The translations under genes were made by a program, and so were the position numbers. Below are positions 10,544 through 51,048 of a stretch of DNA of 51,058 nt, in pieces. Origin of the DNA: a virus. Position 1 is the stretch's first letter. Every line of letters begins with the position of its first letter. Location of the stretch: IMG/VR virus record IMGVR_UViG_3300025128_000059, positions 1 to 51,058 of that record; one strand, 5' to 3'. The notes beneath the pieces are model-generated. The model ran no database searches, was not told where the DNA came from, and saw only the letters and a program-made list of their open reading frames with translations.

Positions 10544-10947
10544 TATGTAATCTCCCTTTTTGCATTCATTAACCAAGAATTATTCCTAGACTCAAGGAAT
10601 TTTGTGTAAAAATTGAAACAGCTTTTATTCACTTCTTTAAACATCCACTTAGATTTACCCTCTCTTCGGCTGTATCTAGACTGAGTTCCCTCCGAATACA
10701 TTCCCCAGGGGTCAAAAATCGAACCGTCAGAAGAAATTTTTATATAGTATTTATATCTAATTTCATTGTCGCCATTCTTAAAAATAGACTTTTTAGCATA
10801 GCAATCTTTACTGGATGGGTCTATTTCGTTTGTATCTTCTTGAGACTTCTTAACGGTATATCCAGTGACAGACTCTATTTCACCGGCAGAGTCAACGCCC
10901 TTGCTGTCGTTTTGTTTCTTTATAGTAGTCGTTATTTCTTTATCCAT
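10543..10947 (-). CDS. Hypothetical protein
   Basis: 134 aa, not recognised. The first 55 residues are polar and probably disordered. A compact region follows (about 60-134) with I-R-Y-K-Y-Y-I-K-I-S, D-P-W-G-M-Y and several aromatic residues. No catalytic motif is visible. It overlaps the upstream zinc-ribbon gene by 8 bases and couples to the downstream HTH gene through TAATG. Confidence 0.65.
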   Translation of the reverse strand: MDKEITTTIKKQNDSKGVDSAGEIESVTGYTVKKSQEDTNEIDPSSKDCYAKKSIFKNGDNEIRYKYYIKISSDGSIFDPWGMYSEGTQSRYSRREGKSKWMFKEVNKSCFNFYTKFLESRNNSWLMNAKREIT

Positions 10948-35543: not shown

Positions 35544-35571
35544 ATTATAGCTTGTGGAGTATGTTTGTCAA
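35544..35571 (-). promoter_or_regulatory. Consensus promoter of the RNA/ssb/glycosyltransferase operon
   Basis: Minus strand: TTGACA at 35571-35566, a 16-base spacer, TATAAT at 35549-35544. The TGA stop of the 1024-aa gene (35570-35568) is inside TTGACA. Both hexamers are perfect. Confidence 0.85.
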
Positions 35572-38500
35572 CCCTCTTCATGGTATTCGTGATAAACTAC
35601 ATCGTTGGATGACCCGCCACAATATCCGATAATTCCTTTCTCTATTTCTTTGTTCATTTCATACATCTCTGTTTCTGTGGGTTGCGGTAGATTTCCTCCA
35701 CAGTCTACACAGCCGAACCGATTGTCCCATATGGCTGGCTGGCAGGGTGTCCCTGTCCCTCCTGAAGTGAGGCTGCAGCACTGTTGTGCTTTGGCAACCC
35801 GTCCAGGGTTCCAGGTCTTATCGTCGTTCCGGGTATTGCAGCACCATCCAATGTCAACAAGAAAAGCACAGTCTAAGTGTGTTATTATCATCTGGTTTCT
35901 AGATATTATAGGGGTCATTAGTTCAGAGCGTCCATCTGGAGCGCCGAACCTTTTTCCACCGTACAGTCCGTAATATATTTGGCCGTTATAACAAGCGCAT
36001 TGCGGTAGCCAATGACCGTGGTTTGCAAAACCTCCAGTAGCCCAAAGCGGGCCTCTGAAAGTTACCGGAGCTGCAGGGCGGTTGAGGTTGGTCATGAGAC
36101 TGTATGCTGTTGCTGTAATGGGACGATTTATTAATTTTGTTCCCAGACCCCAGATTGCCGAGGTAATACCCACTCCATGACCTAATTCGTGTAGTAATAT
36201 TTTATATTTAACTAGAGCGCTTACAGCGTTCCAATAAAACATATTAACTCTAACATTTATAGATGATGGCAGTCTAAATTGCGTATCGACGGCACCTACA
36301 CTGCAAGTCGCCAAAAAAGGGCTTCTGTTGTGAAAACCAGTTACATTGCAATTGACTTTCGGTTTCATTCTATATTTAGGTTCTTCTCCATCTTTTGTTA
36401 GTTTTAATCCTGGCCTTGCTATTCTCTCAGCCCATGAATTAGCGGCATTTTTTATGGATGTAGGAACTGAGAAGCCGCTGGTACTTCCAGCAAAATTAAA
36501 TTCAAATTCTAGAGGAAGCGGGAAATCCTCGTTGTCTTTTATGCAAATCTTTTCCGCATTCCAGCCGTCTTTTAAAAGGTCGTCTAAATCCTCAAACCCC
36601 TCATCGTCGTCGTCTAAATCGGGGGGACCACCTCCTCCGATTGCGTCAGGGGCGTCGAAATTTAGTGGTGAGTCAGCAGAACCTTCGGGGAATTGAGGCT
36701 CTCTAATATCAGGACCGCCTATGCAGGGGACTCCCTTTCCGTTATTCCACAGCTCTTCGGCTGTAAATTCTGGCTTTGTGTCTCCGCCAACGGCGTCTGG
36801 AATACGAGACGACCCCTTGTCAAAACCAAGGCCGTCTATAAGCCACCCTCCGTAGTACATGGGTTGAAATGGCTCGCCGTACTGGTTACCAGGAGTCGTT
36901 GGATTATGAACTCCAGGATATGTGCTTCCAAGGTCGGTTGGGCTTCTTGTGGGTATCCAGCCATTATTTACAAGATGATAGGCTCCGTACCCTAAATTTC
37001 CAGCAGCTCCATGTATTCGATTTCCTCCTAGTGTAAGTTCGCCAGAGCCTAAGCCTTTATTGCTCGGATGCGTTTCAACGTGACCCATATCTACTTCTCT
37101 ACCATCCATAATTTTGAGAAGTTCTGGAGTCCCGTCATCTTTATAGTATCCTACATGAAGTGTTATTTTTGCCATTGTTCGCCGTATGGGGTGTTGTGGA
37201 TTTAGCCCTCCGGCGCCAATTATTCCAAAAGTCCCAGGAGGGTGCGCTCCACTGCCTGGATATACTGGATTTCCATCCGCGTCTACTTGCATGTAGAACA
37301 TGTCTGCGTGATGGAATTGCCATTGTCTTGGGCCAATGCAAGGTATGGTGTCTGGGTCAGGCGCGCCCAATGTGGTTCCACCGCCGTACCCGAAAACGAT
37401 TTTATCTCCAAATGGAGTTTGACCGGCATGGCTGTTATGGTAAAACCATCCCCAATTTCCTTGCCATTCAATTCCCTGCTGCATCACCGGTTGGCCGGGT
37501 TGAACAACTTGCCCGCCAGCAACTTCGCCTAATTCGGTGTCGACCATACCTTCGACGCCTTGGCTTATTTTGAGATAGCCGTTTGTTAAAATTCCTTCAG
37601 TCCACGCCCGACCTCCATCAGAAGTAACATACATTCCTCCTTTGGAGCAACCCGGCGCCGAACCCATGTTTTGATTGCCTTCATATGTGACTCTTCCATC
37701 ATAATCATCGTTATCGGGACCAGAGTAGTTGCCTGTTGGAGCGTCCCAGTAAGGCATAATCCAAAACCATACCCTTAGATGTTTCCACGGTTGCCAGCAT
37801 CTGTTGTGTGTAGTTATACCTGCAAGATTTCCAGTTGTCAGGCTTGTATTGAAATTGTCAGGAATCGCTTCGTGGATTTTTAATCCCGCACCGCCATGAC
37901 TATACATCGTATCGTCACATACTGGATTTCTGCAACAGGGTTTTGGGTTGCATTGCTTATGCTGTCCATTGGGGTCTGTTGGTCCTTCGCCTACGGAGCC
38001 GCAGTCTCCGTGGTCTTTGTTTTTGCATTCATCATCTGCGTCCGGACATTGAAAATGGCCTACTCCGAACATATTCAAAGCTCTCTGACCATCGGGGTCA
38101 CTTGAGTTCATAGCGCCATGGTTGTAATTTAAACCCTCTACTGTTGGCTTCATTCTCTCTACTATTCTTGGGTACTTGTGCGCAGGATGGTCGTCATTTC
38201 CCGATACCTGCCTCTTTAAATGCATCGGAGGGTCAACAAATCTTCTGTTTGCTATATAGTCTTTCCCGCTTTGACCCTGAATGATAAGGGGTCTTTGATG
38301 CATTTGGTCCATCGGATAGCAAGGGCATTCATTTGGACAACAGCCTTCTCTACCGGCAAAGTCGAATGGAGGAGTTGGAATGTATTCTTCAAACGGTCCA
38401 TAGTAAACATGAACTATATTATCGTCAAAATCATTATCTAATCCGCTCTCTCTTCTACCTATTATGTATAAATCAGAGAAGACGCCTCTGGTTGATGCTG

Positions 38501-38642
38501 GCTGGGTTCCGTTGCGTCCAGTATAGCCGCCACACCTATACTTATGTAATCCGCTGGCCCTTTTTCTTGTAAGACCACGCACATCCGCTGTTATTTTTTC
38601 AAATTCACCGTCGTCGCTGGAGGTAGGTGGTCCTGGACTCAT
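35568..38642 (-). CDS. Large virion protein with C-terminal zinc metalloprotease motif
   Basis: 1024 aa. The N-terminal part is rich in Gly, Asp and Pro with cysteine clusters (G-C-C-P-N-E-C-P-C, N-P-K-P-C-C-R-N-P-V-C), typical of fibre or baseplate proteins. Near residues 818-826, L-L-H-E-L-G-H-G-V-G matches the HExxHxxG zinc site. About 100 residues later, S-E-L-M-T-P resembles a metzincin Met-turn, followed by D-C-A-F-L-V-D-I-G-W, as in M8/M10-like proteases. The expected third zinc ligand after GxxG is unclear (later H-G-H is possible). It may cut host surface proteins. No signal peptide. ATGA overlap upstream. Confidence 0.78.
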   Translation of the reverse strand: MSPGPPTSSDDGEFEKITADVRGLTRKRASGLHKYRCGGYTGRNGTQPASTRGVFSDLYIIGRRESGLDNDFDDNIVHVYYGPFEEYIPTPPFDFAGREGCCPNECPCYPMDQMHQRPLIIQGQSGKDYIANRRFVDPPMHLKRQVSGNDDHPAHKYPRIVERMKPTVEGLNYNHGAMNSSDPDGQRALNMFGVGHFQCPDADDECKNKDHGDCGSVGEGPTDPNGQHKQCNPKPCCRNPVCDDTMYSHGGAGLKIHEAIPDNFNTSLTTGNLAGITTHNRCWQPWKHLRVWFWIMPYWDAPTGNYSGPDNDDYDGRVTYEGNQNMGSAPGCSKGGMYVTSDGGRAWTEGILTNGYLKISQGVEGMVDTELGEVAGGQVVQPGQPVMQQGIEWQGNWGWFYHNSHAGQTPFGDKIVFGYGGGTTLGAPDPDTIPCIGPRQWQFHHADMFYMQVDADGNPVYPGSGAHPPGTFGIIGAGGLNPQHPIRRTMAKITLHVGYYKDDGTPELLKIMDGREVDMGHVETHPSNKGLGSGELTLGGNRIHGAAGNLGYGAYHLVNNGWIPTRSPTDLGSTYPGVHNPTTPGNQYGEPFQPMYYGGWLIDGLGFDKGSSRIPDAVGGDTKPEFTAEELWNNGKGVPCIGGPDIREPQFPEGSADSPLNFDAPDAIGGGGPPDLDDDDEGFEDLDDLLKDGWNAEKICIKDNEDFPLPLEFEFNFAGSTSGFSVPTSIKNAANSWAERIARPGLKLTKDGEEPKYRMKPKVNCNVTGFHNRSPFLATCSVGAVDTQFRLPSSINVRVNMFYWNAVSALVKYKILLHELGHGVGITSAIWGLGTKLINRPITATAYSLMTNLNRPAAPVTFRGPLWATGGFANHGHWLPQCACYNGQIYYGLYGGKRFGAPDGRSELMTPIISRNQMIITHLDCAFLVDIGWCCNTRNDDKTWNPGRVAKAQQCCSLTSGGTGTPCQPAIWDNRFGCVDCGGNLPQPTETEMYEMNKEIEKGIIGYCGGSSNDVVYHEYHEEG

Positions 38643-39031
38643 TGCTTCCCTCTTAATTTATCCCATCCGTGTTTTATTACGTCTGCTAAACCAACCTTGT
38701 CTTGTTCTTCATCATAGGTTTCAATAACCTGAAGGTCTATTCCAGCGCTCTCGCAGATTACAGCGCACCTTAGATAATAGATGCTGTCCCTATCGTCTGC
38801 TCTAGATAGAAGTATTATTCCTGGTTTTTTATTAAACAGAGAAGCATAAAGCAGGGCTTGTCCAGGGGCTTGATTGTATTTTTTCATCCACTCTACTTCC
38901 CAAGCGTGGGTTTCGGTTAGGACATCGCATCTAGCCCCGCAGAAAGTTCTGGCCTCTGCTTCGCCATGCATTTGATGAGCAATCCACTTTGACCACTCAG
39001 TTTCTCTATCTTCTGGTCTTGGCCTTTTCAT
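38639..39031 (-). CDS. PD-(D/E)XK nuclease-like protein
   Basis: 130 aa. G-E-A-E-A-R-T-F-C-G-A-R-C-D-V-L (Glu and Asp), A-W-E-V-E-W-M-K-K (E-x-E/K strand) and A-P-G-Q-A-L-L-Y-A follow the order of small phage endonucleases of the PD-(D/E)XK superfamily; the GQALxYA helix is characteristic. It joins two secreted or virion genes by ATGA overlaps, an odd place for a nuclease. It might degrade host DNA at lysis or be a leftover. Activity is inferred from motifs only. Confidence 0.68.
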   Translation of the reverse strand: MKRPRPEDRETEWSKWIAHQMHGEAEARTFCGARCDVLTETHAWEVEWMKKYNQAPGQALLYASLFNKKPGIILLSRADDRDSIYYLRCAVICESAGIDLQVIETYDEEQDKVGLADVIKHGWDKLRGKQ

Positions 39032-40056
39032 TTTGTAGGCATTAACTCTAAATAAGTTTCTGATTTAATAGCGTACGGTTTGAGTATAGTTGCAACAACC
39101 TTGCTTCTATCTCTAAGCCAGAAAAAGAATGCGGTTTCTTTAACTTGGCTAGCTTTGGCGTTCCAGATTCCTCCGGTGTCTTCAATTACCCACTTAGGGC
39201 TGTAAATTTCAGAAAGAGGAGGTGTAATGCTTGGGTCATTCTTAATAGCCCATTCACAACCAGCGGCCTTAGCCCATGCTCGCATACGCCTGATAGGAAC
39301 AATAAGGTTAAAAGTTTCACCAGCACCACGAACAATCATGCCGCAGTATTGGCCTCGGTATTGCTTTGTTTCTTCTGTGTCGCCAGCAACGTACACACCA
39401 CCACCGCTGCTGCCAGGAAAAGCGTTGACAGTTGTTTGGTCAAACACGACACCGCCACCAGCGCTGCCAATGTTTAAGACTCTGCCAATCTGAGACATGA
39501 TTCCGTCAGTCATGCTGTTAGCGCCAAATTGACCGTGCAAAGAACCAACGTGAAAGACTTTGGTTCCGATGGGAAGTATATCGTTATCCGTGTCATAGAA
39601 TACGGCGCTCTTTTCGGTCATACCAATCTTTCTGACCATAAGCAATGCGAGGTCTTGCCCTTCATCCGCATCGCTATATTTAATGACGCTCGCAAGCATT
39701 TTCTTTTCGCCAACTCTACGACCGTTCTCGACTATCTCTTGAACAATCTCTGCGTCCCTAAACTCTACGAGTGTTTTTTGCGTGCCAGTCTTGGTGTCTA
39801 TTACTTTTCTGGTCTTTCTTAGTCGGGTTAGTACATGAGCGGCTGTCCATACAAAGTTGACTTTTACAGGCTTACCGTCAAGACCAGTCATCTCTCTGGT
39901 AACAAGAACTCCTGAACCCTGACCTCTATCTGCTCTAATGGTTACTGAGATGCTTTGAAGGTACGGTGCTAAGGGGCCTTTGATTTCTTCGGCTGAAACA
40001 GATGATGGCACAATCGCCACAATCATCAACAATGTAAATATGACTGCCTTTTTCAT
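39028..40056 (-). CDS. Secreted trypsin-like serine protease
   Basis: 342 aa. The signal peptide is M-K-K followed by a hydrophobic core and cleavage after S-V-S-A22. The triad is W-T-A-A-H74, Q-D135-L-A-L and G-S-S217-G-G-G, all in normal S1 spacing. A C-terminal extension of about 100 residues follows the catalytic domain. It would be exported to the periplasm or outside. Such proteases are rare in phages. Position between a nuclease and small membrane proteins suggests a role in envelope attack or in processing the large virion protein encoded downstream. Confidence 0.85.
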   Translation of the reverse strand: MKKAVIFTLLMIVAIVPSSVSAEEIKGPLAPYLQSISVTIRADRGQGSGVLVTREMTGLDGKPVKVNFVWTAAHVLTRLRKTRKVIDTKTGTQKTLVEFRDAEIVQEIVENGRRVGEKKMLASVIKYSDADEGQDLALLMVRKIGMTEKSAVFYDTDNDILPIGTKVFHVGSLHGQFGANSMTDGIMSQIGRVLNIGSAGGGVVFDQTTVNAFPGSSGGGVYVAGDTEETKQYRGQYCGMIVRGAGETFNLIVPIRRMRAWAKAAGCEWAIKNDPSITPPLSEIYSPKWVIEDTGGIWNAKASQVKETAFFFWLRDRSKVVATILKPYAIKSETYLELMPTK

Positions 40057-40058
40057 GA

Positions 40059-40187
40059 CTAGTCCTCCCTTTTTTTCTTTTTTGTTTTAGTTTTTATTTT
40101 CTTGTTGCTGAAAACCTTATTCCAGTTTTCGTAGTATTTTTCCTGAGAGACTTTCATCTTTCTCCTCTTGCTTCCTTTTCCGTTCAT
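40059..40187 (-). CDS. Small lysine-rich protein
   Basis: 42 aa (M-N-G-K-G-S-K-R-R-K...ends K-K-R-E-D). Its ATG overlaps the TGA stop of the upstream membrane-protein gene (ATGA), and its TAG is two bases before the protease start. This placement is the main support. It is very basic, with a central Y-Y-E-N-W-N-K-V-F segment that could form an amphipathic helix. Function unknown; RNA or DNA binding is possible. Confidence 0.6.
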   Translation of the reverse strand: MNGKGSKRRKMKVSQEKYYENWNKVFSNKKIKTKTKKKKRED

Positions 40188-40468
40188 GCAATAGCTCCAA
40201 ATAATAAGCAAGCCATAAGTGTAAAAAATATACCAAAAGATAAAACTGTTTTTGCGACAATCGGATTTCTATTTTCTATTGCTTTGCATATTGGATAGAC
40301 AAAACACAGTATGATTAAGAATTTAAAACATATTATACCTAAATAGCCAAACTTAGACCATATCCATGATGCTATTGGGTTAGCCTCTAATTCTGGGCTG
40401 AGATATAAGCACGTTAAAGTTAAATCCGCTAGGCTGACTATGGCATATAAGAGCCATAGCACTCGCAT
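40184..40468 (-). CDS. Small membrane protein, DUF5658-like
   Basis: 94 aa with three likely membrane helices (about 3-22, 40-62, 72-92). The pattern A-D-L-T-L-T...E-L-E-A-N-P-I-A-S-W between helices 1 and 2 is that of DUF5658 proteins. The function of this family is not known. It lies in the operon with the trypsin-like protease and the metzincin-like virion protein. Confidence 0.68.
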   Translation of the reverse strand: MRVLWLLYAIVSLADLTLTCLYLSPELEANPIASWIWSKFGYLGIICFKFLIILCFVYPICKAIENRNPIVAKTVLSFGIFFTLMACLLFGAIA

Positions 40469-40482
40469 TTTTTCTCCTGATT

Positions 40483-40791
40483 TTAACTAATTGGTTTATA
40501 AATAACGTCCATAAAAGGTTTAACATCATACGCTTCTTTTAGCATTCTTATAAAATCTTTAGAAAATTTTCCGTAATGCTCTGCTTCCATTAGAGCCATA
40601 ACAGGATAATCTGGTAAGTTTTGCTTAATTCTTAAAAGTATTTTTTTCTTTAAAAAATCTGACCCACAGTTTGCTATTGCAGTATTCAGAGTTTTTTCAA
40701 ATCTTTCAGGGGTAATGCAATGTTTGCATGGCGTATAAACACCATTCTTTTTTACATACCCTTCTTCGCAATACTTACATCTATTCTTCAT
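40483..40791 (-). CDS. Small zinc-finger protein
   Basis: 102 aa. C-K-Y-C-E-E-G-Y...P-C-K-H-C near the N-terminus (residues 5-25) forms a CxxC...CxxC finger. The rest is helical (L-K-K-K-I-L-L-R-I-K, F-I-R-M-L-K-E-A-Y). First gene of the operon behind the 40.8-kb late-type promoter. Function not recognised. Confidence 0.68.
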   Translation of the reverse strand: MKNRCKYCEEGYVKKNGVYTPCKHCITPERFEKTLNTAIANCGSDFLKKKILLRIKQNLPDYPVMALMEAEHYGKFSKDFIRMLKEAYDVKPFMDVIYKPIS

Positions 40792-40833
40792 AGAAAAATT
40801 CCGCTCGTTGCATATGTGCTAAGACTACTATTA

Positions 40834-40841
40834 TATACACA
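40834..40841 (-). promoter_or_regulatory. Late-type promoter motif variant, TGTGTATA
   Basis: Minus-strand TTTTGTGTATATAAT: one base short of the GGTG form. TATA begins 43 bases before the zinc-finger gene start. A TAGACA hexamer 16 bases upstream makes it partly sigma-70-like. It lies just downstream of a terminator. Confidence 0.55.
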
Positions 40842-40860
40842 AAAAACGCAATTTGTCTAA

Positions 40861-40894
40861 TAAAAAAGGAGCCAATTAAAAATTAATTGACCCC
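40861..40894 (-). terminator. Rho-independent terminator of the holin/spanin operon
   Basis: Minus strand: a 12-bp stem with two G-U pairs (GGGGTCAATTAA/TTAATTGGCTCC), a three-base loop and TTTTTTA after it. It lies about 20 bases after the stop of the 74-aa gene and closes the operon that starts at 42.3 kb. Confidence 0.88.
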
Positions 40895-40915
40895 TCTAAA
40901 AGTTGCTTTATATTT

Positions 40916-41140
40916 TTACTTTGATTCAAGAGACTCTCTAATCCAATGGACATCTCTCTTGATTTGAAGAAGTAAATCGTGGTCTTTTTGATATTCCCTG
41001 TCTATTTCTGCCAAACGCTCTTCATGTCTGGTTATTTGATGTTGGGTAATTCCAAAAGTAGCCCCAACACTAGCAATCATAATTACTATCGACAGTATAA
41101 CTCCAGCCGCTTCCGCTGTCAAATTTTTAAGGGCTTTCAT
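40916..41140 (-). CDS. Membrane-anchored coiled-coil protein, spanin/holin-like
   Basis: 74 aa from ATG 41140; its first 14 bases overlap the upstream gene. One membrane helix (about 11-32) is followed by a charged helix with heptad character (I-T-R-H-E-E-R-L-A-E-I-D-R-E-Y). This is the layout of small i-spanin or holin-accessory proteins. Position after a holin-like gene and a TM protein supports a lysis role. The frame is open further up but lacks a reason to start earlier. Confidence 0.68.
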   Translation of the reverse strand: MKALKNLTAEAAGVILSIVIMIASVGATFGITQHQITRHEERLAEIDREYQKDHDLLLQIKRDVHWIRESLESK

Positions 41141-41522
41141 TTTTTTTCTCCGGCGATTTGAGGATAATTGTGCCTTTTGGGTACACTCGAATCTTCGCTT
41201 TAGTCGCAACACCTAAGTTTGTTTCGGGCATTATTTTTGCATAAGGCGCAAAGGAGTATGAATATGACCTTGGAGCTAGATTTGCAAAACCAGTATTGTT
41301 TGGATTTTTAATCTTAGCCATTTGTGCATACGCATGATTGGGCCTTTGCATTTTCTGCGCTTTAGGGGCAACGCCAACATTCATACAGATTTCTTTTGGC
41401 TTTAACCTTGGAAGGTCTTTGTTTAAAGATTCTCTATGTATGAGCATGCCGATTATAAGCAAGCAAGCAATCAGGAGAGTTATAGCCATTAAAGCTATAA
41501 AGCCCTTACATTCGTTCCACAT
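41127..41522 (-). CDS. Single-pass membrane protein with extracytoplasmic domain
   Basis: 131 aa from ATG 41522, preceded by GAGGGAG. Residues 8-29 are hydrophobic (F-I-A-L-M-A-I-T-L-L-I-A-C-L-L-I-I-G-M-L-I), then a soluble domain rich in Asn, Pro, Ala and Lys. With the overlapping 74-aa coiled-coil gene it may form a spanin-like pair. There is no lipobox. An alternative is a membrane anchor unrelated to lysis. Confidence 0.65.
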   Translation of the reverse strand: MWNECKGFIALMAITLLIACLLIIGMLIHRESLNKDLPRLKPKEICMNVGVAPKAQKMQRPNHAYAQMAKIKNPNNTGFANLAPRSYSYSFAPYAKIMPETNLGVATKAKIRVYPKGTIILKSPEKKNESP

Positions 41523-41548
41523 GATTTTTCTCCCTCTTGTAAAACAAA

Positions 41549-41716
41549 TTAATTTTTTGCGTCTTTTGCAAACAACAAGCCCCATGCGGCGGTTAGTGCT
41601 GCAATCGTTGTGGGCCAATCAGGCGATTCGCCTTCAATAATTGCTCTTCCCGCTGCGAGACAGGCGATGCCTGCGGTACAAATACCCGCAACAGTAGTTC
41701 GCCAATTGCTTTTCAT
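41549..41716 (-). CDS. Holin-like small membrane protein
   Basis: 55 aa. M-K-S-N-W-R-T-T-V-A-G-I starts a first hydrophobic helix, a short loop carries E-G-E-S-P-D-W-P, then a second hydrophobic segment ends G-L-L-F-A-K-D-A-K. N-W-x-T-T-x-A-G at the start and L-L-F-A-K-D at the end are a very common pattern in phage holin-like proteins. AAGGAG lies 6 bases before the ATG. Two membrane segments and a charged tail fit a class II holin. It would release cytoplasmic lysis enzymes. Confidence 0.75.
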   Translation of the reverse strand: MKSNWRTTVAGICTAGIACLAAGRAIIEGESPDWPTTIAALTAAWGLLFAKDAKN

Positions 41717-41732
41717 ATTAAACTCCTTTACT

Positions 41733-42041
41733 TTACTGTAAATACTTGTAAATGTTTTCTACGTCCCTGTTAAACTTAAAATTCCTTTTCTCTAGCATCC
41801 AAGATATAATCAAGGAAACAATTATTTTTATTATGATAGCATAGATAACTGGAAATGATTTCTGAACCTTCTTTTTTATCATTCTTTCTGCCCAAACTCT
41901 TTCTCCGGCAGACGCGCTCAGGCTGTACCAATGAGTAACGCAGTGATAGATTGTTGCGTTTGTTATAGAAGGGAACCTCCTGGCAAGCCAGGGGCCTTTT
42001 GTAGATGCTTCCAGTTGTAGACCGGCTATCGTCTTTGCCAT
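41733..42041 (-). CDS. Membrane-tethered hypothetical protein
   Basis: 102 aa. A hydrophobic helix at about 62-83 (F-P-V-I-Y-A-I-I-I-K-I-I-V-S-L-I-I-S-W) divides an N-terminal soluble part from a basic C-tail. The segment A-T-I-Y-H-C-V-T-H-W-Y...G-E-R-V-W-A-E-R-M faintly recalls the C-terminal half of DUF1353, a phage family often near lysis genes; this is a weak match and the N-terminal half is missing. A second minus frame (41776-42099) overlaps it. This frame has the more protein-like composition. Confidence 0.5.
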   Translation of the reverse strand: MAKTIAGLQLEASTKGPWLARRFPSITNATIYHCVTHWYSLSASAGERVWAERMIKKKVQKSFPVIYAIIIKIIVSLIISWMLEKRNFKFNRDVENIYKYLQ

Positions 42042-42095
42042 CTTCTAAACAACCTTCTTCTTGGAGCCGACCGGCTCGTTGTGTTGGTTTTATGG

Positions 42096-42308
42096 TCATT
42101 TTCTTCCTGGCCCACTTGGGGGGCAGGGTTTTCTTGGTCGGGAAAAGTTATCCGTAGTTGGCTCTTTTGGCTCAACTACGACCTCCTTTTCAATTTTTTT
42201 TGGTGAAATAACTGGTATACATACTTTTTGAGCCTCGACACTTCTATCTTCGTTGGAAGATAAAGCAAGGCCAAGAATTATAATTCCAGCTAAGTTAATG
42301 GTTTTCAT
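42096..42308 (-). CDS. Small exported protein with Pro/Lys-rich tail
   Basis: 70 aa. M-K-T-I-N-L-A-G-I-I-I-L-G-L-A-L-S-S looks like a signal peptide or membrane anchor. The rest is charged and Pro-rich (P-K-K-I-E-K-E-V-V-V-E-P-K-E-P) with two cysteines. It is the first gene of the holin operon after a late-type promoter. It may be an envelope-spanning peptide. Function not recognised. Confidence 0.62.
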   Translation of the reverse strand: MKTINLAGIIILGLALSSNEDRSVEAQKVCIPVISPKKIEKEVVVEPKEPTTDNFSRPRKPCPPSGPGRK

Positions 42309-42347
42309 ATTAAATAACCAAAAAATAAATTTATGTTGTCTTTAATT

Positions 42348-42355
42348 TATACACC
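42348..42355 (-). promoter_or_regulatory. GGTGTATA late-type promoter motif
   Basis: Minus-strand GGTGTATA (then AATT), preceded by AATT, 40 bases before the first gene of the holin operon. No TTGACA-like -35. It lies in the 62-base gap after the papain-like gene. Confidence 0.65.
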
Positions 42356-42370
42356 AATTTTTATATATTT

Positions 42371-43174
42371 TTAAGCCTTATGTGGATATGAAATGGTGAC
42401 TCTTGGTGCAACGGCATCGTCTGGAGTACCCTTATCCTCTGTAAGTATTGCGTATCCATCCTTGCCATAGCTCATGCCCCATGAGTTTCTTATTCTAATT
42501 CCGTATTTATTATTACCAAAAGAGATTGGGTCAATGGCAGAAACCTCATGTCTCCACCAGTTATATCCAACGGCAACAGGTATTCTAAGCAGAAGGCATG
42601 TCATGGTTTGTTCAAAGTCTCTAGTTTGCAAATCATACCATTCTGTAACTATATAATTTTTTGCTATTTCTAGATTTTCTTCTGTGTAGTAGTCCTTGTC
42701 TATTGCGTTTGCGGGCCAGTGTTTGCTAGGAACAACTCCGTGTTTAGTTATGTATCTTAACGCCTGTGTTCCCCACCCGCCTCTATTTTTGTAATCTTTT
42801 ATTGGGGCCGCAACGCTCGATGGAGATAGATATTCTATTCCAAGACCCATGCAAAGCCTTACAACCTGTAAACAATATACAGGTCCGTTTGCCCAACAAT
42901 AATTTGTTCCGTTCTGATTGAAACACTTCAGTCCAGCAGCATAAGAAACGTCCGACAGTCTAGACTTTGTTTTTTCCATTTCCTCTATTCTGTCAGACCA
43001 TTCATCTCTGGGTATTACTGGTATATCAAACCCCTTAGCAAACCCTCCTATTGGGTCTTCGTTTAAATCTCTTGACTCTAATCCGCTAGACATTCCGTCT
43101 GGTAGACCGCACGCAGCTTCCCTTCCAGTTTTAATTATAGGTTCACCATCAAAAATTTGAGATTGGAAGGTCAT
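42371..43174 (-). CDS. Papain-like (C1) cysteine protease, copy 2
   Basis: 267 aa. Catalytic residues by spacing: Q87 (oxyanion), C93 (N-Y-C-W-A), H209 (W-W-R-H-E) and N230 (I-R-N-S-W-G), as in papain. G-G-W-G-T-Q-A-L and Y-G-I-R-I-R-N-S-W-G-x-x-Y-G-x-D-G-Y are family blocks. There is no signal peptide and no long pro-domain; the N-terminal 85 residues contain R-D-E-W-S-D-R-I-E-E-M-E-K, shared with the 43.6-kb copy. It is probably cytoplasmic until the holin acts, or packaged. It follows a thioredoxin-like gene by ATGA overlap. Confidence 0.88.
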   Translation of the reverse strand: MTFQSQIFDGEPIIKTGREAACGLPDGMSSGLESRDLNEDPIGGFAKGFDIPVIPRDEWSDRIEEMEKTKSRLSDVSYAAGLKCFNQNGTNYCWANGPVYCLQVVRLCMGLGIEYLSPSSVAAPIKDYKNRGGWGTQALRYITKHGVVPSKHWPANAIDKDYYTEENLEIAKNYIVTEWYDLQTRDFEQTMTCLLLRIPVAVGYNWWRHEVSAIDPISFGNNKYGIRIRNSWGMSYGKDGYAILTEDKGTPDDAVAPRVTISYPHKA

Positions 43175-43557
43175 TGTTTTATCTGCTCCATAAGCTGTTC
43201 AAGATTTTGAGGTAAGGGAATTGACTTTCCTTCGCTTGCATTAGAAAATATTAGCCAGGGCAGAGAGCCTCTTTGTTTAGATAAAGATTGTTTTACCCAT
43301 TCTTTTTCATTGCTAACATCAGTGTCTGGGTCTAAAACCCTCCATTGGCCCTTTTGTTCAGATACATAATCTCTCCACACCTGAGATGTTATTGCTGAAA
43401 GCTGTTCTGGAGCAAGGGATTGGCGCGACTCTGTTTCCTCTATGATTACAACGGTATATCTATCTACGTCTATTGGTGCCTTGGACTTTATTTTCCCATC
43501 AGAGAAAACAAAAAACAAAAGCATAATAGCTATGATAGAATTAAAAAAATTATTCAT
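43171..43557 (-). CDS. Membrane-anchored thioredoxin-like protein without CxxC, copy 2
   Basis: 128 aa. A hydrophobic N-terminus (about 5-18, I-I-A-I-M-L-L-F-F-V-F) is a signal anchor. The rest has a thioredoxin-like order: V-V-I-I-E-E-T-E, helix, Q-W-R-V-L-D-P-D, helix, L-P-W-L-I-F-S, where the Pro matches the cis-Pro loop. There is no CxxC, so it is not a redox enzyme. It is coupled by ATGA to a papain-like protease, as is its 44.4-kb paralogue, so a partner or inhibitor role is likely. Confidence 0.7.
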   Translation of the reverse strand: MNNFFNSIIAIMLLFFVFSDGKIKSKAPIDVDRYTVVIIEETESRQSLAPEQLSAITSQVWRDYVSEQKGQWRVLDPDTDVSNEKEWVKQSLSKQRGSLPWLIFSNASEGKSIPLPQNLEQLMEQIKQ

Positions 43558-43558
43558 T

Positions 43559-44374
43559 TTAATTCTCGGCTGGTTTGGTTGGGTTGTGTGGCATAGTTGT
43601 GCTTCTAATTACATATCCTCCACCCCACAGTCTTTCGCTATCATATCTAAATACGTTATAGCTGTCCTTATATCTGGAGTAATAACGACCATCGTCTTTC
43701 ACCAAATTCATATGTGGGATTGAGTGGCCGTTTCGGCCATTTACCACACATAAACCGTGTAATAAACAACTGGCGTGAGCCTCTTCGTTTGGCACAGTAT
43801 AAACCTCTAATGCTCTAAAATGTTTTGCTGTTTCTTTCCAGCCGTTAGGTAGGTTACTTGGGGTAATCCATCCGCTAGTAGGCCACCAGTCCTCGGTTCT
43901 TCCAGACGTTTGATGTAGCGTATGCTTAAATTTATCTTTCTGGCTATTGTTCCCTGCTGGTCCGTCATGGTCAGGAATCATTCCATTCTCTATCATCTCA
44001 TACATAGAATCAATTACCATAGACCCTCCCCATCTTCTTCCACCAGTTATTCTGGTATATAAGGCAAGAGGGCTAAACCATACATCATGTTCCAAGCCGC
44101 CCAACTGTCTGTTGTATGCTGTCATAAACGCTTGTTGTGCTGCGTGGCAGACGCATTCATGGCTGTTTGCTTGATTTGTGAATCGACCGCTAAAGAAATC
44201 GGCGCTACTCTTATGTTTCTCATGTTCACGAATTCGGTCATCCCATTCTGACCTCTCTATGTAAAACTCACTAGGAAGTCTTTTTGCGCCTGCGTACAAC
44301 AGGTCTTCTTCTTTTATGTCAGCGGATAATCCATCGAATTCAAATTCTACATCTATTAGCTTAGAGTCTATCAT
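43559..44374 (-). CDS. Papain-like (C1) cysteine protease, copy 1
   Basis: 271 aa. Q68 and C74 (H-E-C-V-C-H-A) match the oxyanion Gln and nucleophile of the other copy in spacing. H217 or H221 (N-G-H-S-I-P-H) and N240 (D-S-Y-N) supply the rest of the triad. R-S-E-W-D-D-R-I-R-E-H-E-K-H-K-S aligns with the same block in copy 2. The CVC in place of CWA and the loss of the NSWG block make it more diverged, so it may have changed specificity. No signal peptide. Confidence 0.78.
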   Translation of the reverse strand: MIDSKLIDVEFEFDGLSADIKEEDLLYAGAKRLPSEFYIERSEWDDRIREHEKHKSSADFFSGRFTNQANSHECVCHAAQQAFMTAYNRQLGGLEHDVWFSPLALYTRITGGRRWGGSMVIDSMYEMIENGMIPDHDGPAGNNSQKDKFKHTLHQTSGRTEDWWPTSGWITPSNLPNGWKETAKHFRALEVYTVPNEEAHASCLLHGLCVVNGRNGHSIPHMNLVKDDGRYYSRYKDSYNVFRYDSERLWGGGYVIRSTTMPHNPTKPAEN

Positions 44375-44742
44375 TTTACTGCCTCTATAATTTCTGATTC
44401 GGTTTTTGGTAAATCCTGAACCTTAATTACATTTCCTTTAGACAGAACAACCAAAGCGGGAAGTCCGTTCTTTGTAGCTTCGTCGATAGCATTTTTCAAA
44501 TACTCTGGAACTTGACCTGTTCCTGTGACTACATCTTTATCGAAAATTCTGGTTTGAAGCCCATCTGCTTGCAAGCCACCTAAAGCCCCTGTAACGTATG
44601 GAGGTGGTATAGTTTCCGAAGACTCATAAACAACACATACGGTGTCTGCCTTAGAAAAAGAATCAATATTTAACTTCCAGTCACCCTCAAGTAAAACTAG
44701 AAGAAGTAATATGACACAGACTGTATTTACTACGTTCTTCAT
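44371..44742 (-). CDS. Membrane-anchored thioredoxin-like protein without CxxC, copy 1
   Basis: 123 aa. An N-terminal hydrophobic anchor (T-V-C-V-I-L-L-L-L-V-L-L) is followed by V-C-V-V-Y-E-S-S-E-T, a long helical region, R-I-F-D-K-D-V-V and L-P-A-L-V-V-L-S-K-G-N. It lacks CxxC. It overlaps the papain-like gene by ATGA. It is the paralogue of the 43.2-kb gene, so a two-gene unit was duplicated. Function unknown. Confidence 0.7.
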   Translation of the reverse strand: MKNVVNTVCVILLLLVLLEGDWKLNIDSFSKADTVCVVYESSETIPPPYVTGALGGLQADGLQTRIFDKDVVTGTGQVPEYLKNAIDEATKNGLPALVVLSKGNVIKVQDLPKTESEIIEAVK

Positions 44743-44743
44743 A

Positions 44744-45094
44744 TTATACTCCGTCTAAAAGTTTTGCGTCTGGATGTTCTGATTCAAGAGAAGGCTTGAG
44801 AGGAGTGGTTGCGCTGACTGTGAGCTTGCCAACCTCGGCCAGTGTCAGGCTATCCATCTTTTCTCTTTCAACTCCGCAAACAGCAAGATAGTCTTGAAGT
44901 TGAATTAAGCAATCGTATAAATCTTTTCTGTCGTCAGGGCTTGCACTCTTAGACTTTGACTTAAAGCTAAAGAAGCTAAGAAACCCTGGAATCCATCGCC
45001 ATAAAAAAGACAAACTCTCCCTGTTATTAAAAACAAGAAGGGCCACAACAGCGATGATAACTAGTGTTTTGTTTTGTGTAATAAAATCAATCAT
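44744..45094 (-). CDS. Single-pass membrane protein
   Basis: 116 aa. A hydrophobic helix at about 9-23 (L-V-I-I-A-V-V-A-L-L-V-F) and a second semi-hydrophobic stretch (F-L-W-R-W-I-P-G-F-L-S-F-F) precede a Ser/Lys-rich linker and a soluble domain of about 60 residues with two cysteines. It starts in an ATGA overlap with the 56-aa gene. Not recognised. It is in the same operon as the thioredoxin-like/papain-like units. Confidence 0.65.
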   Translation of the reverse strand: MIDFITQNKTLVIIAVVALLVFNNRESLSFLWRWIPGFLSFFSFKSKSKSASPDDRKDLYDCLIQLQDYLAVCGVEREKMDSLTLAEVGKLTVSATTPLKPSLESEHPDAKLLDGV

Positions 45095-45261
45095 TTTTCT
45101 TTTATCCTAATGTCAAATGTTAGAGGCCAGAGTTTAACTAACTTAAAACGAATACCATTTGAATCAATCTTGTCGGTTAGTGTATTGAGTTTAGAAATTA
45201 GTTCTCTAGCGTTTTTAATTGTTGAAAATAAACGTCTTTCTTCGTCTCTGTTGATAGGCAT
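45091..45261 (-). CDS. Small hypothetical protein
   Basis: 56 aa. GGAG lies 8 bases before its ATG, and its TGA overlaps the next start (ATGA). It is helical in the first half (E-E-R-R-L-F-S-T-I-K-N-A-R-E-L-I) and beta-like at the end (I-R-F-K-L-V-K-L-W-P-L-T-F-D-I-R). It is the first gene of the protease operon. Function unknown. Confidence 0.68.
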   Translation of the reverse strand: MPINRDEERRLFSTIKNARELISKLNTLTDKIDSNGIRFKLVKLWPLTFDIRIKEK

Positions 45262-45273
45262 CTTTTCTCCTTA

Positions 45274-45840
45274 CTATACACCATTAAGTATCTTGCCATA
45301 TAAAGAATGGAGGTCGAAGAAAACCCATCTATCGTGGTGATTAAGTGTCTTTATGCTGCGTTCGGAACACTGGTTTACATCACCTAAATAATCTATAATC
45401 TGGTCCCAGGTTTCAAAAATCATATTGTGAGATGAACCTAGCATGCCCAATAGCCAGTCTGGAGTGTGGGATTTGCCCTGCTTCATCCTGACTATTATGG
45501 GCTTTTTCTGTCTGTTTGCGGTAACTACTTCTTCGTAGGTTCCGCAAGCATGAACGTCTAGGTCTATATTTGCTATGATAAAATCAGATATGTCAACCAT
45601 TCTAAGGTCAACATTCCTAATCTCTTTCATTTCCTCAATAGCCGTGTTGTAGGCTCCGGCAGACTTATACTTTTGGCGTCTATTTCTAGCGTCTTCGCTT
45701 TCATCGGCAATAGGTATAGCTTTATTGCATGGGTTAAAAACAACCACACCTAATTTATTTAGCTCAGGCTCTAGACGCTCTCTCCATTCAACGCCACCGT
45801 CTTCAACTCTATCCATCGCTCCGACTAGATAGGTTCTCAT
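45274..45840 (-). CDS. Nucleoside 2-deoxyribosyltransferase-like protein
   Basis: 188 aa from ATG 45840. R-T-Y-L-V-G-A-M-D...G-G-V-E-W-R and V-V-F-N-P are the N-terminal blocks of the nucleoside deoxyribosyltransferase-like family; D-I-S-D-F-I-I-A-N-I-D and G-T-Y-E-E-V follow, with the Glu of G-T-x-x-E as the probable nucleophile. It could exchange or cleave nucleoside bases in salvage. ATG 45858 is less likely because the promoter start point falls on it. It forms a one-gene unit behind its own promoter. Confidence 0.75.
   Translation of the reverse strand: MRTYLVGAMDRVEDGGVEWRERLEPELNKLGVVVFNPCNKAIPIADESEDARNRRQKYKSAGAYNTAIEEMKEIRNVDLRMVDISDFIIANIDLDVHACGTYEEVVTANRQKKPIIVRMKQGKSHTPDWLLGMLGSSHNMIFETWDQIIDYLGDVNQCSERSIKTLNHHDRWVFFDLHSLYGKILNGV
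45275..45282 (-). promoter_or_regulatory. GGTGTATA late-type motif on a stop codon
   Basis: Minus-strand GGTGTATA (then GT) formed by the last Gly-Val codons and TAG stop of the deoxyribosyltransferase-like gene. It is only 14 bases from the next ATG, so a start here would cut into the ribosome-binding site. It is the weakest member of the set. Confidence 0.4.
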
Positions 45841-45863
45841 TCCAAATAGTCTGTTCATATATT

Positions 45864-47178: not shown

Positions 47179-47791
47179 GGGTGAAAACTTTTTGTGGGTG
47201 ATTGTAACTGCCGAATTTATATCCTAATAATTGTACATCGTCAGAATACTTGTCTGCAACTGCATCCATGCTCTCTTTGTCGTAATACTCTGAATAATGC
47301 TTGTGGGTTGTTTCGTTTTTCCTTTTTAGGGTGGTAGGCTGAAGACCTATATTTTTGCACAAGCCGTCGAAGTGAGATTGAAGTTTCTCGAATCTTCCAA
47401 CGAAATCAACCTGACTGTCTATCCAGTATGTTTGCGGTCTGAAATGAAGGCTGTCAATAGAACCATTCATAGCAAAGTCTTTGAATGACTTAAATGGTTT
47501 TATTTGTTCTTCATACTCATCGTTTTGTTTTTCAGACAAGTAAACGTAAGAGCTAACGAATCTATCCCACGGATTCCTGATAAACGCAAAAGAAAAATCT
47601 ACTGCTGCGGGCCAATTTTCTTCCCTAACGGACGGTTCGGACGCCCTGGAATGATAGGTTCCATAGGTTCCTCGTATCTGCCATTCTGTAGACCTTTCTT
47701 CTGGTAGTCCTAGCGAACGAATAGACTCGTTTAAAGCATCTAGTATAGATACGCCAGCGGTTTTTGGAACGTGTATGAATCTTAGTATCAT
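47168..47791 (-). CDS. Sulfotransferase family 2-like, PAPS-dependent
   Basis: 207 aa. F-I-H-V-P-K-T-A-G near residues 5-13 is the 5'-phosphosulfate-binding loop, and F-A-F-I-R-N-P-W-D-R-F-V-S-S-Y is the 3'-phosphate-binding block. The family includes carbohydrate sulfotransferases. Substrate unknown; its neighbours suggest a glycan. A TAATG overlap couples it to mazG upstream. Sulfation by a phage is unusual. Confidence 0.85.
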   Translation of the reverse strand: MILRFIHVPKTAGVSILDALNESIRSLGLPEERSTEWQIRGTYGTYHSRASEPSVREENWPAAVDFSFAFIRNPWDRFVSSYVYLSEKQNDEYEEQIKPFKSFKDFAMNGSIDSLHFRPQTYWIDSQVDFVGRFEKLQSHFDGLCKNIGLQPTTLKRKNETTHKHYSEYYDKESMDAVADKYSDDVQLLGYKFGSYNHPQKVFTHEE

Positions 47792-48150
47792 TATCTTTTA
47801 TCCCCATCGCCGCCCAGTTTATTTCGCATCTGGCGGTCAGCTAATTTGTCTACGTTACTTAATGCTATTTCTCCGAGACTTACATTCAATTCCGATGCAA
47901 TGGCTGCGACATACCAGAGAACGTCACCGAGTTCAGCAGAAAGAATCTCTCTGTACTCATCAGTAAGAACCCCGTCATGGTCACGGTAAATCTTCTTTAC
48001 CTTGTTTGCAATCTCTCCAGCTTCACCACACAGTCCAAGCGTAGGATAAGACATATTGTTTCCCTTGTTTGGGTAAATAGCCGTTAGATTAGAAATCTCC
48101 TGGTAAGCATCAAGTGTAACAGTTTCGGCACCACCTCCACAACATCCCAT
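47791..48150 (-). CDS. mazG: MazG-like nucleotide pyrophosphohydrolase
   Basis: 119 aa from ATG 48150, with TGGAGG 5 bases before. M-G-C-C-G-G-G is followed by the MazG helices: G-L-C-G-E-A-G-E-I-A-N-K and E-I-L-S-A-E-L-G-D-V-L-W-Y, giving the ExxE...ExxD metal site. It hydrolyses nucleoside triphosphates or ppGpp-type alarmones to monophosphates. The Gly/Cys head is not a normal part of MazG and resembles the GGGCCG tail of the 16.5-kb gene. It follows GMP reductase by 1 base. Confidence 0.88.
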   Translation of the reverse strand: MGCCGGGAETVTLDAYQEISNLTAIYPNKGNNMSYPTLGLCGEAGEIANKVKKIYRDHDGVLTDEYREILSAELGDVLWYVAAIASELNVSLGEIALSNVDKLADRQMRNKLGGDGDKR

Positions 48151-48151
48151 A

Positions 48152-49285
48152 TCAACCTCCAAAAATTTTATTATGTGTATTATTAACTCGAACAAAGTTT
48201 GCACATCTATGAATATCTTTTATACTCGTAGCTCCGATGTACGCACAGCAACTTCTTATTCCACCAACTATGTCTTGCATGACATTTTCTACGCATCCCT
48301 TCGCGGGAATTGTCACCAGCTTTCCTTCGCTTGTCCTCTGTTTCTTTCTGCTATCATACTTGTCTTGGGCCTCGTAAGACGACATGCCGTAGAACTGAAA
48401 CACCTTTTTTCCTGTGGCTATATCTGTTGCCCGCTTTCCGCTGCATTGGTCGGTTCCAGCAACCATGCCTCCAATCATTACAAAGTCTGCTCCGGCCCCA
48501 AGTGCCTTGCAAATATCTCCTGTGGTAGTACATCCTCCATCAGCACATATTCTTCCAACTCTACCGTTCTCTGGATTTTTGATTCCATGCGCAGCATTAG
48601 CGCACTCGACGATAGCAGAGAATTGAGGATACCCAACACCCGTCTTTAATCTAGTAGTGCAAACACTCCCTGGCCCTATGCCTATCTTGACTATATCTGC
48701 ACCAGCATGAATTAGTTTTAATACCATCTCTGGTGTGACTACGTTTCCAGCCATAATTATTGATTCGGGGAACAGCTTACGAATGTACTCGACCTTCTCA
48801 ACGAAGTATTGAGAGTATCCGTTTGCAACGTCTATGCAGATGCTTGGCTGTATCGGGGGTATTCTTCTATTCTGTGGGTCAAAATCCGCCTTATACTCGC
48901 ACAGTTCTTTTATGCCTTTTAGATTTAATATGTCTGCGTCAGTTATGCCTGTGCTTACCCATGCTGTGTTCATAAGTTCTTTTTGAAAGGCAGGAGCCTC
49001 GCTTGCATACCTGTCTGTAAGCAACTCCTTCCAATAATCTAAGCTCTTTCGTTTGTCAAAACAAACTATCGAATCCCAGCCTGCCACATGCTCCCACATC
49101 TCAATGGTTCCGGTCGTATCCATATTCGCAATCATAACAGGTAAACCACTCCAATTTCTATTGGAATGGTAGAAACCATCAAACTCACGCTTCATGTTTA
49201 CGTCAGACCTAGAAGCGTTGATAGACCATGCTGGCGTAAGTAAAACGTCTGAGAAGTCCAGCTTGGTGTCTTGTGATATATTCAT
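48152..49285 (-). CDS. guaC: GMP reductase
   Basis: 377 aa. The IMPDH/GMPR catalytic loop G-I-G-P-G-S-V-C209-T-T-R-L-K-T-G-V-G-Y-P-Q is very close to E. coli GuaC, and the following C-A-N-A-A-H-G and A-D-G-G-C-T-T-T-G-D-I-C-K-A-L-G-A-G are GMPR-like. CBS domains of IMPDH are absent. It converts GMP to IMP with NADPH and ammonia release. Phage-encoded GMP reductase is unusual; it may pull guanine ribonucleotides toward adenine or relieve ppGpp precursors. ATGA overlap with the small membrane gene upstream; mazG follows. Confidence 0.9.
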   Translation of the reverse strand: MNISQDTKLDFSDVLLTPAWSINASRSDVNMKREFDGFYHSNRNWSGLPVMIANMDTTGTIEMWEHVAGWDSIVCFDKRKSLDYWKELLTDRYASEAPAFQKELMNTAWVSTGITDADILNLKGIKELCEYKADFDPQNRRIPPIQPSICIDVANGYSQYFVEKVEYIRKLFPESIIMAGNVVTPEMVLKLIHAGADIVKIGIGPGSVCTTRLKTGVGYPQFSAIVECANAAHGIKNPENGRVGRICADGGCTTTGDICKALGAGADFVMIGGMVAGTDQCSGKRATDIATGKKVFQFYGMSSYEAQDKYDSRKKQRTSEGKLVTIPAKGCVENVMQDIVGGIRSCCAYIGATSIKDIHRCANFVRVNNTHNKIFGG

Positions 49286-50539: not shown

Positions 50540-50567
50540 ATTATATCAGACTATTTCTTTTTGTCAA
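50540..50567 (-). promoter_or_regulatory. Consensus promoter of the GMP reductase operon
   Basis: Minus strand: TTGACA at 50567-50562, a 16-base spacer, TATAAT at 50545-50540. The promoter overlaps the last codons of the CAP gene. Both hexamers are perfect. Confidence 0.85.
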
Positions 50568-51048
50568 GTGACGGTATTGACCTAGCATAGACAGCACACC
50601 AGTAAATCATGTTGCCTCGCCTTGCCATTCCAAAACCACACTTGTCATATCTTCCAGTCATGTTAGCGTAATGGCCTCCCGAATTTCTCCACACACTAAA
50701 CACACTCTTAATGCTTCTTTGCCCGCGAGCTATATTCTCTGTAACAAAACCGCCTTTCCAGCCAGCATCTTTCGCCCGACTACTCGGAGTACCGTTGATA
50801 TAGTGAGACATATTTCCTTGGTCTGCCATATACTCTGCATGTCCTTGTGCCGCCTTGCATAGTTCCTCGTCTAGCACTTGTTCCGGTTTTCCTGCGTCCT
50901 GACGTATCCTATTGCTCTCCTGACGCATCTTTTTAATTGTTATGTGATTCTTTAGTTGTAAGACTTTTCTTAGCCCCACAGGGTATTTTACCTTAATGGG
51001 TTCTACTTGACCTGTTCCCGACATCATCCAGACTACTAATGCAGCCAT
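50551..51048 (-). CDS. CAP/SCP-domain secreted protein, start possibly outside window
   Basis: 165 aa from the first ATG; the frame is open to the right edge, so the true start may lie beyond 51058. H-A-E-Y-M-A-D...M-S-H...A-K-D-A-G-W, T-E-N-I-A-R-G, V-F-S-V-W-R-N-S-G-G-H-Y-A-N-M and Y-D-K-C-G-F-G-M-A are the CAP motifs, with both His and the ENIA Glu present. The visible N-terminus is hydrophobic but lacks a positive charge, as in a truncated signal peptide. CAP proteins are extracellular. Together with the proteases it adds to the secreted set. Confidence 0.83.
   Translation of the reverse strand: MAALVVWMMSGTGQVEPIKVKYPVGLRKVLQLKNHITIKKMRQESNRIRQDAGKPEQVLDEELCKAAQGHAEYMADQGNMSHYINGTPSSRAKDAGWKGGFVTENIARGQRSIKSVFSVWRNSGGHYANMTGRYDKCGFGMARRGNMIYWCAVYARSIPSLDKKK

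Follow-up and report, generated by a model that had tools for sequence, protein, structure and literature searches.

How might a large marine phage leave its host cell when no peptidoglycan hydrolase can be recognised among its genes? Tailed phages are, to our knowledge, generally taken to need such an enzyme for exit. The question is raised by the IMG/VR record IMGVR_UViG_3300025128_000059 (51,058 bases, analysed over its whole length and referred to below as the window), in which two papain-like cysteine proteases, PAP1 and PAP2, stand among thioredoxin-fold and small membrane proteins at 45094–40916. We interpret this region of a large marine phage, with middling confidence, as its putative lysis cassette, in which PAP1 and PAP2 replace a peptidoglycan hydrolase. 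The interpretation is based on complete or near-complete relatives, which carry the cassette at lysis-type positions and contain no recognisable hydrolase. A preliminary description of the sequence had already proposed protease-based lysis. That part stands, whereas its holin and spanin assignments, the membership of a metzincin and a host among the Planctomycetes are not supported.

Papain-like proteases and their thioredoxin-fold partners

Both papain-like proteases of the preliminary description are borne out, PAP1 by its Pfam and PDB matches and PAP2 by homology, motifs and fold matches. PAP1 matches Peptidase_C1 (E = 4.5e-6, above the Pfam cut-off), and its best PDB sequence match is a plant papain (E = 3e-6). 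It retains Q-x5-C, H and NSWG, and the order Gln, Cys, His, Asn together with the profile places it in the C1 family. PAP2 has no Pfam match in the scan of the window proteins and is homologous to PAP1, the PAP1 of locus L001 matching it at 3.7e-6. It keeps Q68-x5-C74 and H217, and the catalytic motif is still present in a relative of 39% identity (L049). Judged by the Asp at the position of papain's Asn and by the missing Pfam match, PAP2 is a diverged relative of the C1 family. In a fold comparison of its AlphaFold2 model with the PDB, the top 50 matches are all papain-family enzymes or their proforms. The protein is 93–94% identical in three large relatives and 72–78% in small-genome relatives, and its ratio of nonsynonymous to synonymous substitution rates (dN/dS, Table 1) indicates strong purifying selection. 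Among viral proteins, PAP2 is matched best by a "Peptidase C1A" from an uncultured phage, itself uncharacterised, and no PAP was found in sequenced phage records. Topology prediction gives no hydrophobic segment in PAP.

A papain-like protease is most likely the lysis enzyme of the cassette, with an envelope protein or a peptidoglycan peptide as candidate substrates. PAP could thus be an endolysin that cuts peptidoglycan peptides, that is, a diverged peptidoglycan peptidase rather than part of a proteolytic lysis system, which we think somewhat unlikely. Papain-superfamily enzymes that cut peptidoglycan are common, and the NlpC/P60 and CHAP endolysins (PMC10318531) share Cys-His catalysis with PAP; however, no such match was obtained here. 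PAP1 groups with C1, its motifs are of C1 type (CWA, NSWG), and the sequences that it matches belong to C1 proteases, not to NlpC or CHAP. Mycobacteriophage LysA likewise has a papain-family domain (N5) within a phage lysis enzyme (PMC3314691). There it forms the N-terminus of an endolysin made up of several domains, including wall-binding regions, whereas PAP is free-standing, has about 270 residues and carries C1 rather than C39-like motifs. The lack of any recognised cell-wall-binding domain in PAP also speaks against a peptidoglycan peptidase.

Each PAP is preceded by a protein with a transmembrane (TM) anchor, so that the window contains two tandem TRX-PAP pairs. These partners had been overlooked in the preliminary description. 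The AlphaFold2 model of TRXa (predicted local distance difference test score, pLDDT, 77) consists of a TM helix followed by a beta-alpha-beta-alpha-beta-beta-alpha arrangement, and its PDB fold matches are mostly thioredoxins (probability 1.00), which assigns it to the thioredoxin fold. The TRXa and PAP2 genes overlap by 4 bases, and TRXb lies directly upstream of PAP1 in the window, L002 and L003. None of the aligned TRX proteins has a CxxC redox site. The TRX domain comes after the N-terminal anchor or, in the TRX-like protein of L049, after a signal-like sequence expected of a secreted protein, and therefore most likely faces the periplasm. An endolysin-like role for papain-like proteins without signal peptides, as suggested earlier, fits both the topology of PAP and its membrane-anchored partner. 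Upstream of TRX-PAP, TM116 is kept in L001–L003, L006–L012, L014 and L023.

Table 1. Features of the putative cassette and of its flanks, in order from the TM116 end.
Feature	Coordinates	Strand	dN/dS	Description
TM116	44744..45094	-	0.17 (vs G003)	One N-terminal TM (residues 4-22) and a domain of ~70 residues; first gene of the conserved cassette
TRXa	44371..44742	-	0.15-0.18	Membrane-anchored thioredoxin-fold protein without CxxC; partner of PAP2
PAP2	43559..44374	-	0.04	Papain-like cysteine protease; Q68, C74, H217, D237; no signal peptide or TM
TRXb	43171..43557	-		Second membrane-anchored thioredoxin-like protein; partner of PAP1; aligns with TRXa
PAP1	42371..43174	-	0.09-0.20	Papain-family (C1) cysteine protease; CWA, H and NSWG motifs; no signal peptide
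sp70	42096..42308	-	0.27	Short Pro-rich protein, exported or anchored
o102	41733..42041	-	0.14	One TM (65-83) near the C-terminus; holin or lysis-accessory candidate
tm163	41127..41522	-		One strong N-terminal TM (10-28); the holin at 41549 of the preliminary description
tm98	40916..41140	-	0.05	N-terminal TM and charged helical tail; i-spanin-like topology
DUF5658 protein	40184..40468	-		Pfam DUF5658 (E = 9.4e-7); three predicted TMs; holin-like size and topology
TRYP	39028..40056	-	0.08	Secreted trypsin-like serine protease; accessory to the core cassette
Metzincin-like	35568..38642	-		1024 residues; HELGHGVG...HW...ELMTP, by eye like the M8/leishmanolysin metallopeptidase motif

Conservation of the cassette and search for a peptidoglycan hydrolase

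Searches with PAP1, PAP2 and their alignment yielded about 20 loci, which form 13 PAP clusters at 90% identity. One gene order, TM116 - TRX - PAP - short Pro-rich protein - (o102) - tm98, is shared by large-genome relatives and by small genomes of a different backbone, the module being present in the window, in records G002–G004 and in the unrelated small genomes G001 and G005. The PAP slot is filled by PAP1 in G001 and G004, by PAP2 in G003, G005 and L006–L015, and by both in the window and G002. The order persists despite insertions between TRX and PAP (a methylase in L010 and an HNH-like gene in L015); in G004, TRX-PAP2 is displaced as a pair away from the cassette. In G001 and G005, the cassette follows NinG and is located ahead of the virion genes, while it lies directly before the terminase in L052 and just after it in L049. 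The neighbourhood of NinG, terminase and virion genes is a familiar place for lysis genes in lambdoid phages.

The weight of a missing hydrolase depends on how much of a genome is in view. G003, a record of 148,761 bases, is collinear with most of the window, with about 72–92% nucleotide identity in aligned blocks. It starts within a ribonucleotide reductase gene (residues 561–826) and finishes within the same gene (residues 1–501), so it is a nearly complete genome in permuted form. G003 has its terminase, portal, capsid and tail genes at 45–95 kb; the window lacks this part and by this comparison is a fragment of about one third of such a genome. We rule out that the window is a whole genome, given its collinearity with relatives of 148.8 and 94.8 kb. 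The small genomes G001 (47,063 bases) and G005 (45,560 bases) are bounded by perfect repeats of 126 and 127 bases, respectively, and are therefore considered complete circular assemblies.

No known peptidoglycan hydrolase family was found in the window, either among the matches listed (best 25 families for the genes outside the cassette) or in the unclear proteins that were rescanned. The earlier statement that none occurs in 51 kb is thus correct for the window; it had overlooked that the window is a fragment, which makes it weak evidence alone. The check beyond the window was therefore carried out on relatives, and G001, G005 and the near-complete G003 all contain no recognisable peptidoglycan hydrolase. 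The 68 proteins scanned from G001 and G005 match 23 Pfam families at E<0.01, of which Peptidase_C1 is the sole one of lytic type. Complete Pfam lists for the virion region and for 95–124 kb of G003 include no peptidoglycan hydrolase; at 10.8–45 kb, none was found among the matches listed (best 25 families) or in rescanned unclear proteins, and a virion-type frame of about 1080 residues (57.9–61.0 kb) was covered by the six-frame searches only. These searches, for Amidase_2, phage lysozyme, M15, SLT, M23 and NlpC/P60, were negative in all 12 records (0/12) and positive in control genomes. At 10849–45069 of G003 (L017–L019), some 35 sugar-nucleotide, glycosyltransferase and methyltransferase genes form a run whose size is unusual for a phage.

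In the mechanism that we propose, PAP, which has no export signal, would accumulate in the cytoplasm until a holin, for which TM116, o102 and the DUF5658 protein are candidates, opens the inner membrane and releases it. The released PAP would then dock on, or be activated by, the periplasm-facing TRX domain and cut a load-bearing layer, upon which the cell would burst. In the large phages, secreted TRYP would assist in the degradation of the envelope.

Small membrane proteins and secreted proteases

Several small TM proteins are encoded in the cassette region (TM116, o102, tm163 and the DUF5658 protein), and the roles given to some of them earlier could not be confirmed. The holin that had been placed at 41549 corresponds to tm163, a one-TM protein that most likely starts at ATG 41522, where a Shine-Dalgarno sequence is found, and is confined to the three nearest relatives (L002, L003, L023). 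The DUF5658 protein occurs only in the large-genome relatives (55–82% identity in the same three loci). By comparison, o102 is conserved down to 27–34% identity in L001, L006 and L007. An open reading frame at 41776–42099 (-) was rejected as a gene, with a dN/dS >1 that marks it as spurious; the real gene there is the overlapping o102, although automatic callers may pick the spurious frame.

The two proposed spanins fare no better. In the five loci L001 and L010–L013, PAP is followed by short Pro-rich counterparts of sp70 (53–67 residues). Inspection of sp70 and these counterparts revealed no lipobox, so sp70 is not the lipoprotein expected of an o-spanin and resembles one in composition only. 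Kept after PAP in both kinds of genome, tm98 was dropped as proof of a spanin, as its family, examined at 26 loci, is in many cases found without PAP and among virion genes.

TRYP, on the other hand, is the secreted trypsin-like protease described earlier, with a Trypsin_2 match (E = 4.2e-8), an N-terminal hydrophobic segment, and triad motifs in 82/82 family members examined. Related loci in viral contigs number 461, of which the best 80 were fetched. TRYP represents a large marine-phage family, often located among cysteine peptidases, thioredoxins and small TM genes; it is missing from the small genomes and hence lies outside the core cassette. Of the loci fetched, 24 (15 clusters at 90%) show, in whole or in part, the arrangement TM106 - Cys peptidase - second secreted trypsin-like protein - 263-aa protein - TRYP - small TM - holin-like or CxxC thioredoxin. 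In L094 and L095, TRYP is tightly flanked by two small TM genes. The enrichment of small TM neighbours is modest (16/41 vs 28/137, p 0.02) because TRYP also occurs in replication and capsid contexts. We argue that the association of proteases, thioredoxin folds and small TM proteins is functional, since this independent set of loci has the same ingredients. The gene set around TRYP, shared by L117, L120, L127, L137 and some 20 further loci, seems to be another type of lysis cassette rich in proteases.

These trypsins bear on what PAP might cut. The Cys peptidase of their neighbourhoods has PDB entry 3kw0 as its only PDB sequence match (E = 0.006, a weak match), which adds to the case for PAP as a peptidoglycan peptidase, while the protein-cutting trypsin beside PAP in the large phages detracts from it. 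They would also fit a division of labour in which the work of the proteases is confined to the outer envelope or the spanin step, and the enzyme that cuts peptidoglycan has diverged so far that profile searches miss it. Secreted trypsins are suited to degrading outer-membrane proteins, the trypsins of the marine cassettes occur alongside a separate Cys peptidase, and a clear spanin pair is missing. We regard this explanation as improbable, as it would take another enzyme, unrecognised throughout, in each of the genomes examined.

Several observations weigh against a papain-based lysis cassette. No cassette gene matches a known holin or spanin model in Pfam or PHROGs, and the tm98 family is also present among the virion genes of phages without PAP. 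The six hydrolase families searched for are likewise missing from these PAP-less phages, and P8625, a cultured verrucophage, has no PAP, TRX or recognised hydrolase; the absence of a recognisable hydrolase is therefore not specific to PAP phages, a point that also favours a hidden peptidoglycan enzyme. The blank searches may reflect divergent, unrecognised enzymes, and the giant virion proteins or a CAP-domain protein described below could hide one that acts on the cell wall. The AlphaFold2 model of PAP2 is poor (pLDDT 53). In L016, PAP2 directly follows a virion-type gene of 3167 aa and TRX is missing; in L080, no PAP was found near TRX.

The position of PAP2 in L016, the relocation of the TRX-PAP2 pair in G004 and the failure of the earlier holin and spanin labels under strict tests raise the question of whether the cassette serves lysis at all. 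Large phages have many accessory proteases, and TRX-PAP could be a host-takeover, counter-defence, superinfection-exclusion, maturation or ejection protease module near late genes. This possibility seems to us doubtful, given that the cassette is retained in small complete genomes, in the constant company of small TM proteins, at lysis-type positions and with no other recognisable lysis enzyme. A literature search on proteolytic phage lysis or CAP-domain cell-wall enzymes returned nothing useful.

Among the flanking genes, the proposed metzincin has no Pfam or PHROG match, is recognised from its motif by eye only, and was dropped from the cassette as it is absent from G003. The CAP-domain (PF00188) protein encoded at 50551–51048 (-) is 78–89% identical in three large relatives and has a possible envelope or cell-wall role. 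Nucleotide metabolism genes adjoin the cassette at 48152–49285 (IMP dehydrogenase/GMP reductase-type), 45274–45858 (nucleoside deoxyribosyltransferase-type) and 47791–48204 (MazG), all on the minus strand.

Host and relation to known lysis systems

PAP was found in one cellular record, L052, a 22.9-kb phage contig with terminase, portal and capsid in a Puniceicoccaceae (Verrucomicrobiota) bin from station ALOHA. Further PAP hosts were not found in the Verrucomicrobiota, where 1/273 genomes of the order and 1/388 of the phylum are positive, both being this same bin. The GC content is 41% in the window vs 50% in L052. L052 is a possible anchor for assigning a host to the phage group. Binned phage contigs are weak evidence, and this sole clue hints at the Puniceicoccaceae, which belong to Verrucomicrobiota subdivision 4; nothing supports the Planctomycetes named in the preliminary description. 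The terminases of the relatives were discarded as a host clue, having only distant matches (<60% identity).

Verrucophage P8625 (KP792622) is lytic and forms plaques on a Puniceicoccales strain, and the paper describing it names no lysis enzyme or hydrolase (PMC4642752). It resembles the phages studied here in having no recognised hydrolase and in its phosphoesterase, 28% identical to one upstream of the G005 cassette. It was excluded as a PAP carrier, as both PAP and TRX are absent. At 20244–21801 of P8625 (L054), two small TM genes adjoin the phosphoesterase and mark a candidate region for lysis genes.

Lambda S-R-Rz/Rz1-type holin-endolysin-spanin cassettes have a similar design, with compact small membrane proteins around one soluble enzyme without a signal, near terminase, NinG or virion genes. 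The enzyme of the present cassette, however, is a papain-type protease instead of a muramidase, transglycosylase or amidase and comes with a thioredoxin-fold partner, and known holins and spanins are not matched. TRYP shares the Ser-protease triad and export signal of HtrA/DegP-like and Trypsin_2 proteases, and its PDB sequence matches are DegP-like. It differs in being phage-encoded, in having no recognised PDZ domain, and in its location amid small TM genes in many marine phages.

Coraliomargarita was described as lacking muramic acid and diaminopimelic acid (PMC3035286). Sacculi and peptidoglycan were later shown in related Opitutaceae and inferred for subdivision 4, where peptidoglycan genes are also present (PMC5303756). 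A wall dependent on protein is thus unproven, and these sacculi are a further argument for PAP as a peptidoglycan-cutting endolysin. We consider it unlikely, if conceivable, that a class of marine phages, with hosts including subdivision 4 Verrucomicrobia, lyses by proteolysis alone, with no peptidoglycan hydrolase in the genome; holin-released PAP acting on a redox-dead membrane thioredoxin would, together with secreted trypsin, destroy a protein-based envelope.

The enzymes described here offer lytic proteases beyond the conventional endolysins, and the cassette can serve as a marker when uncultured marine phages are assigned. Complete genomes in which all tested hydrolase families are missing and the papain-thioredoxin cassette is kept would point either to a new class of lysis enzyme or to hosts whose strength is protein-based. 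Either outcome is relevant to the unsettled matter of how Verrucomicrobia and their relatives are held together.

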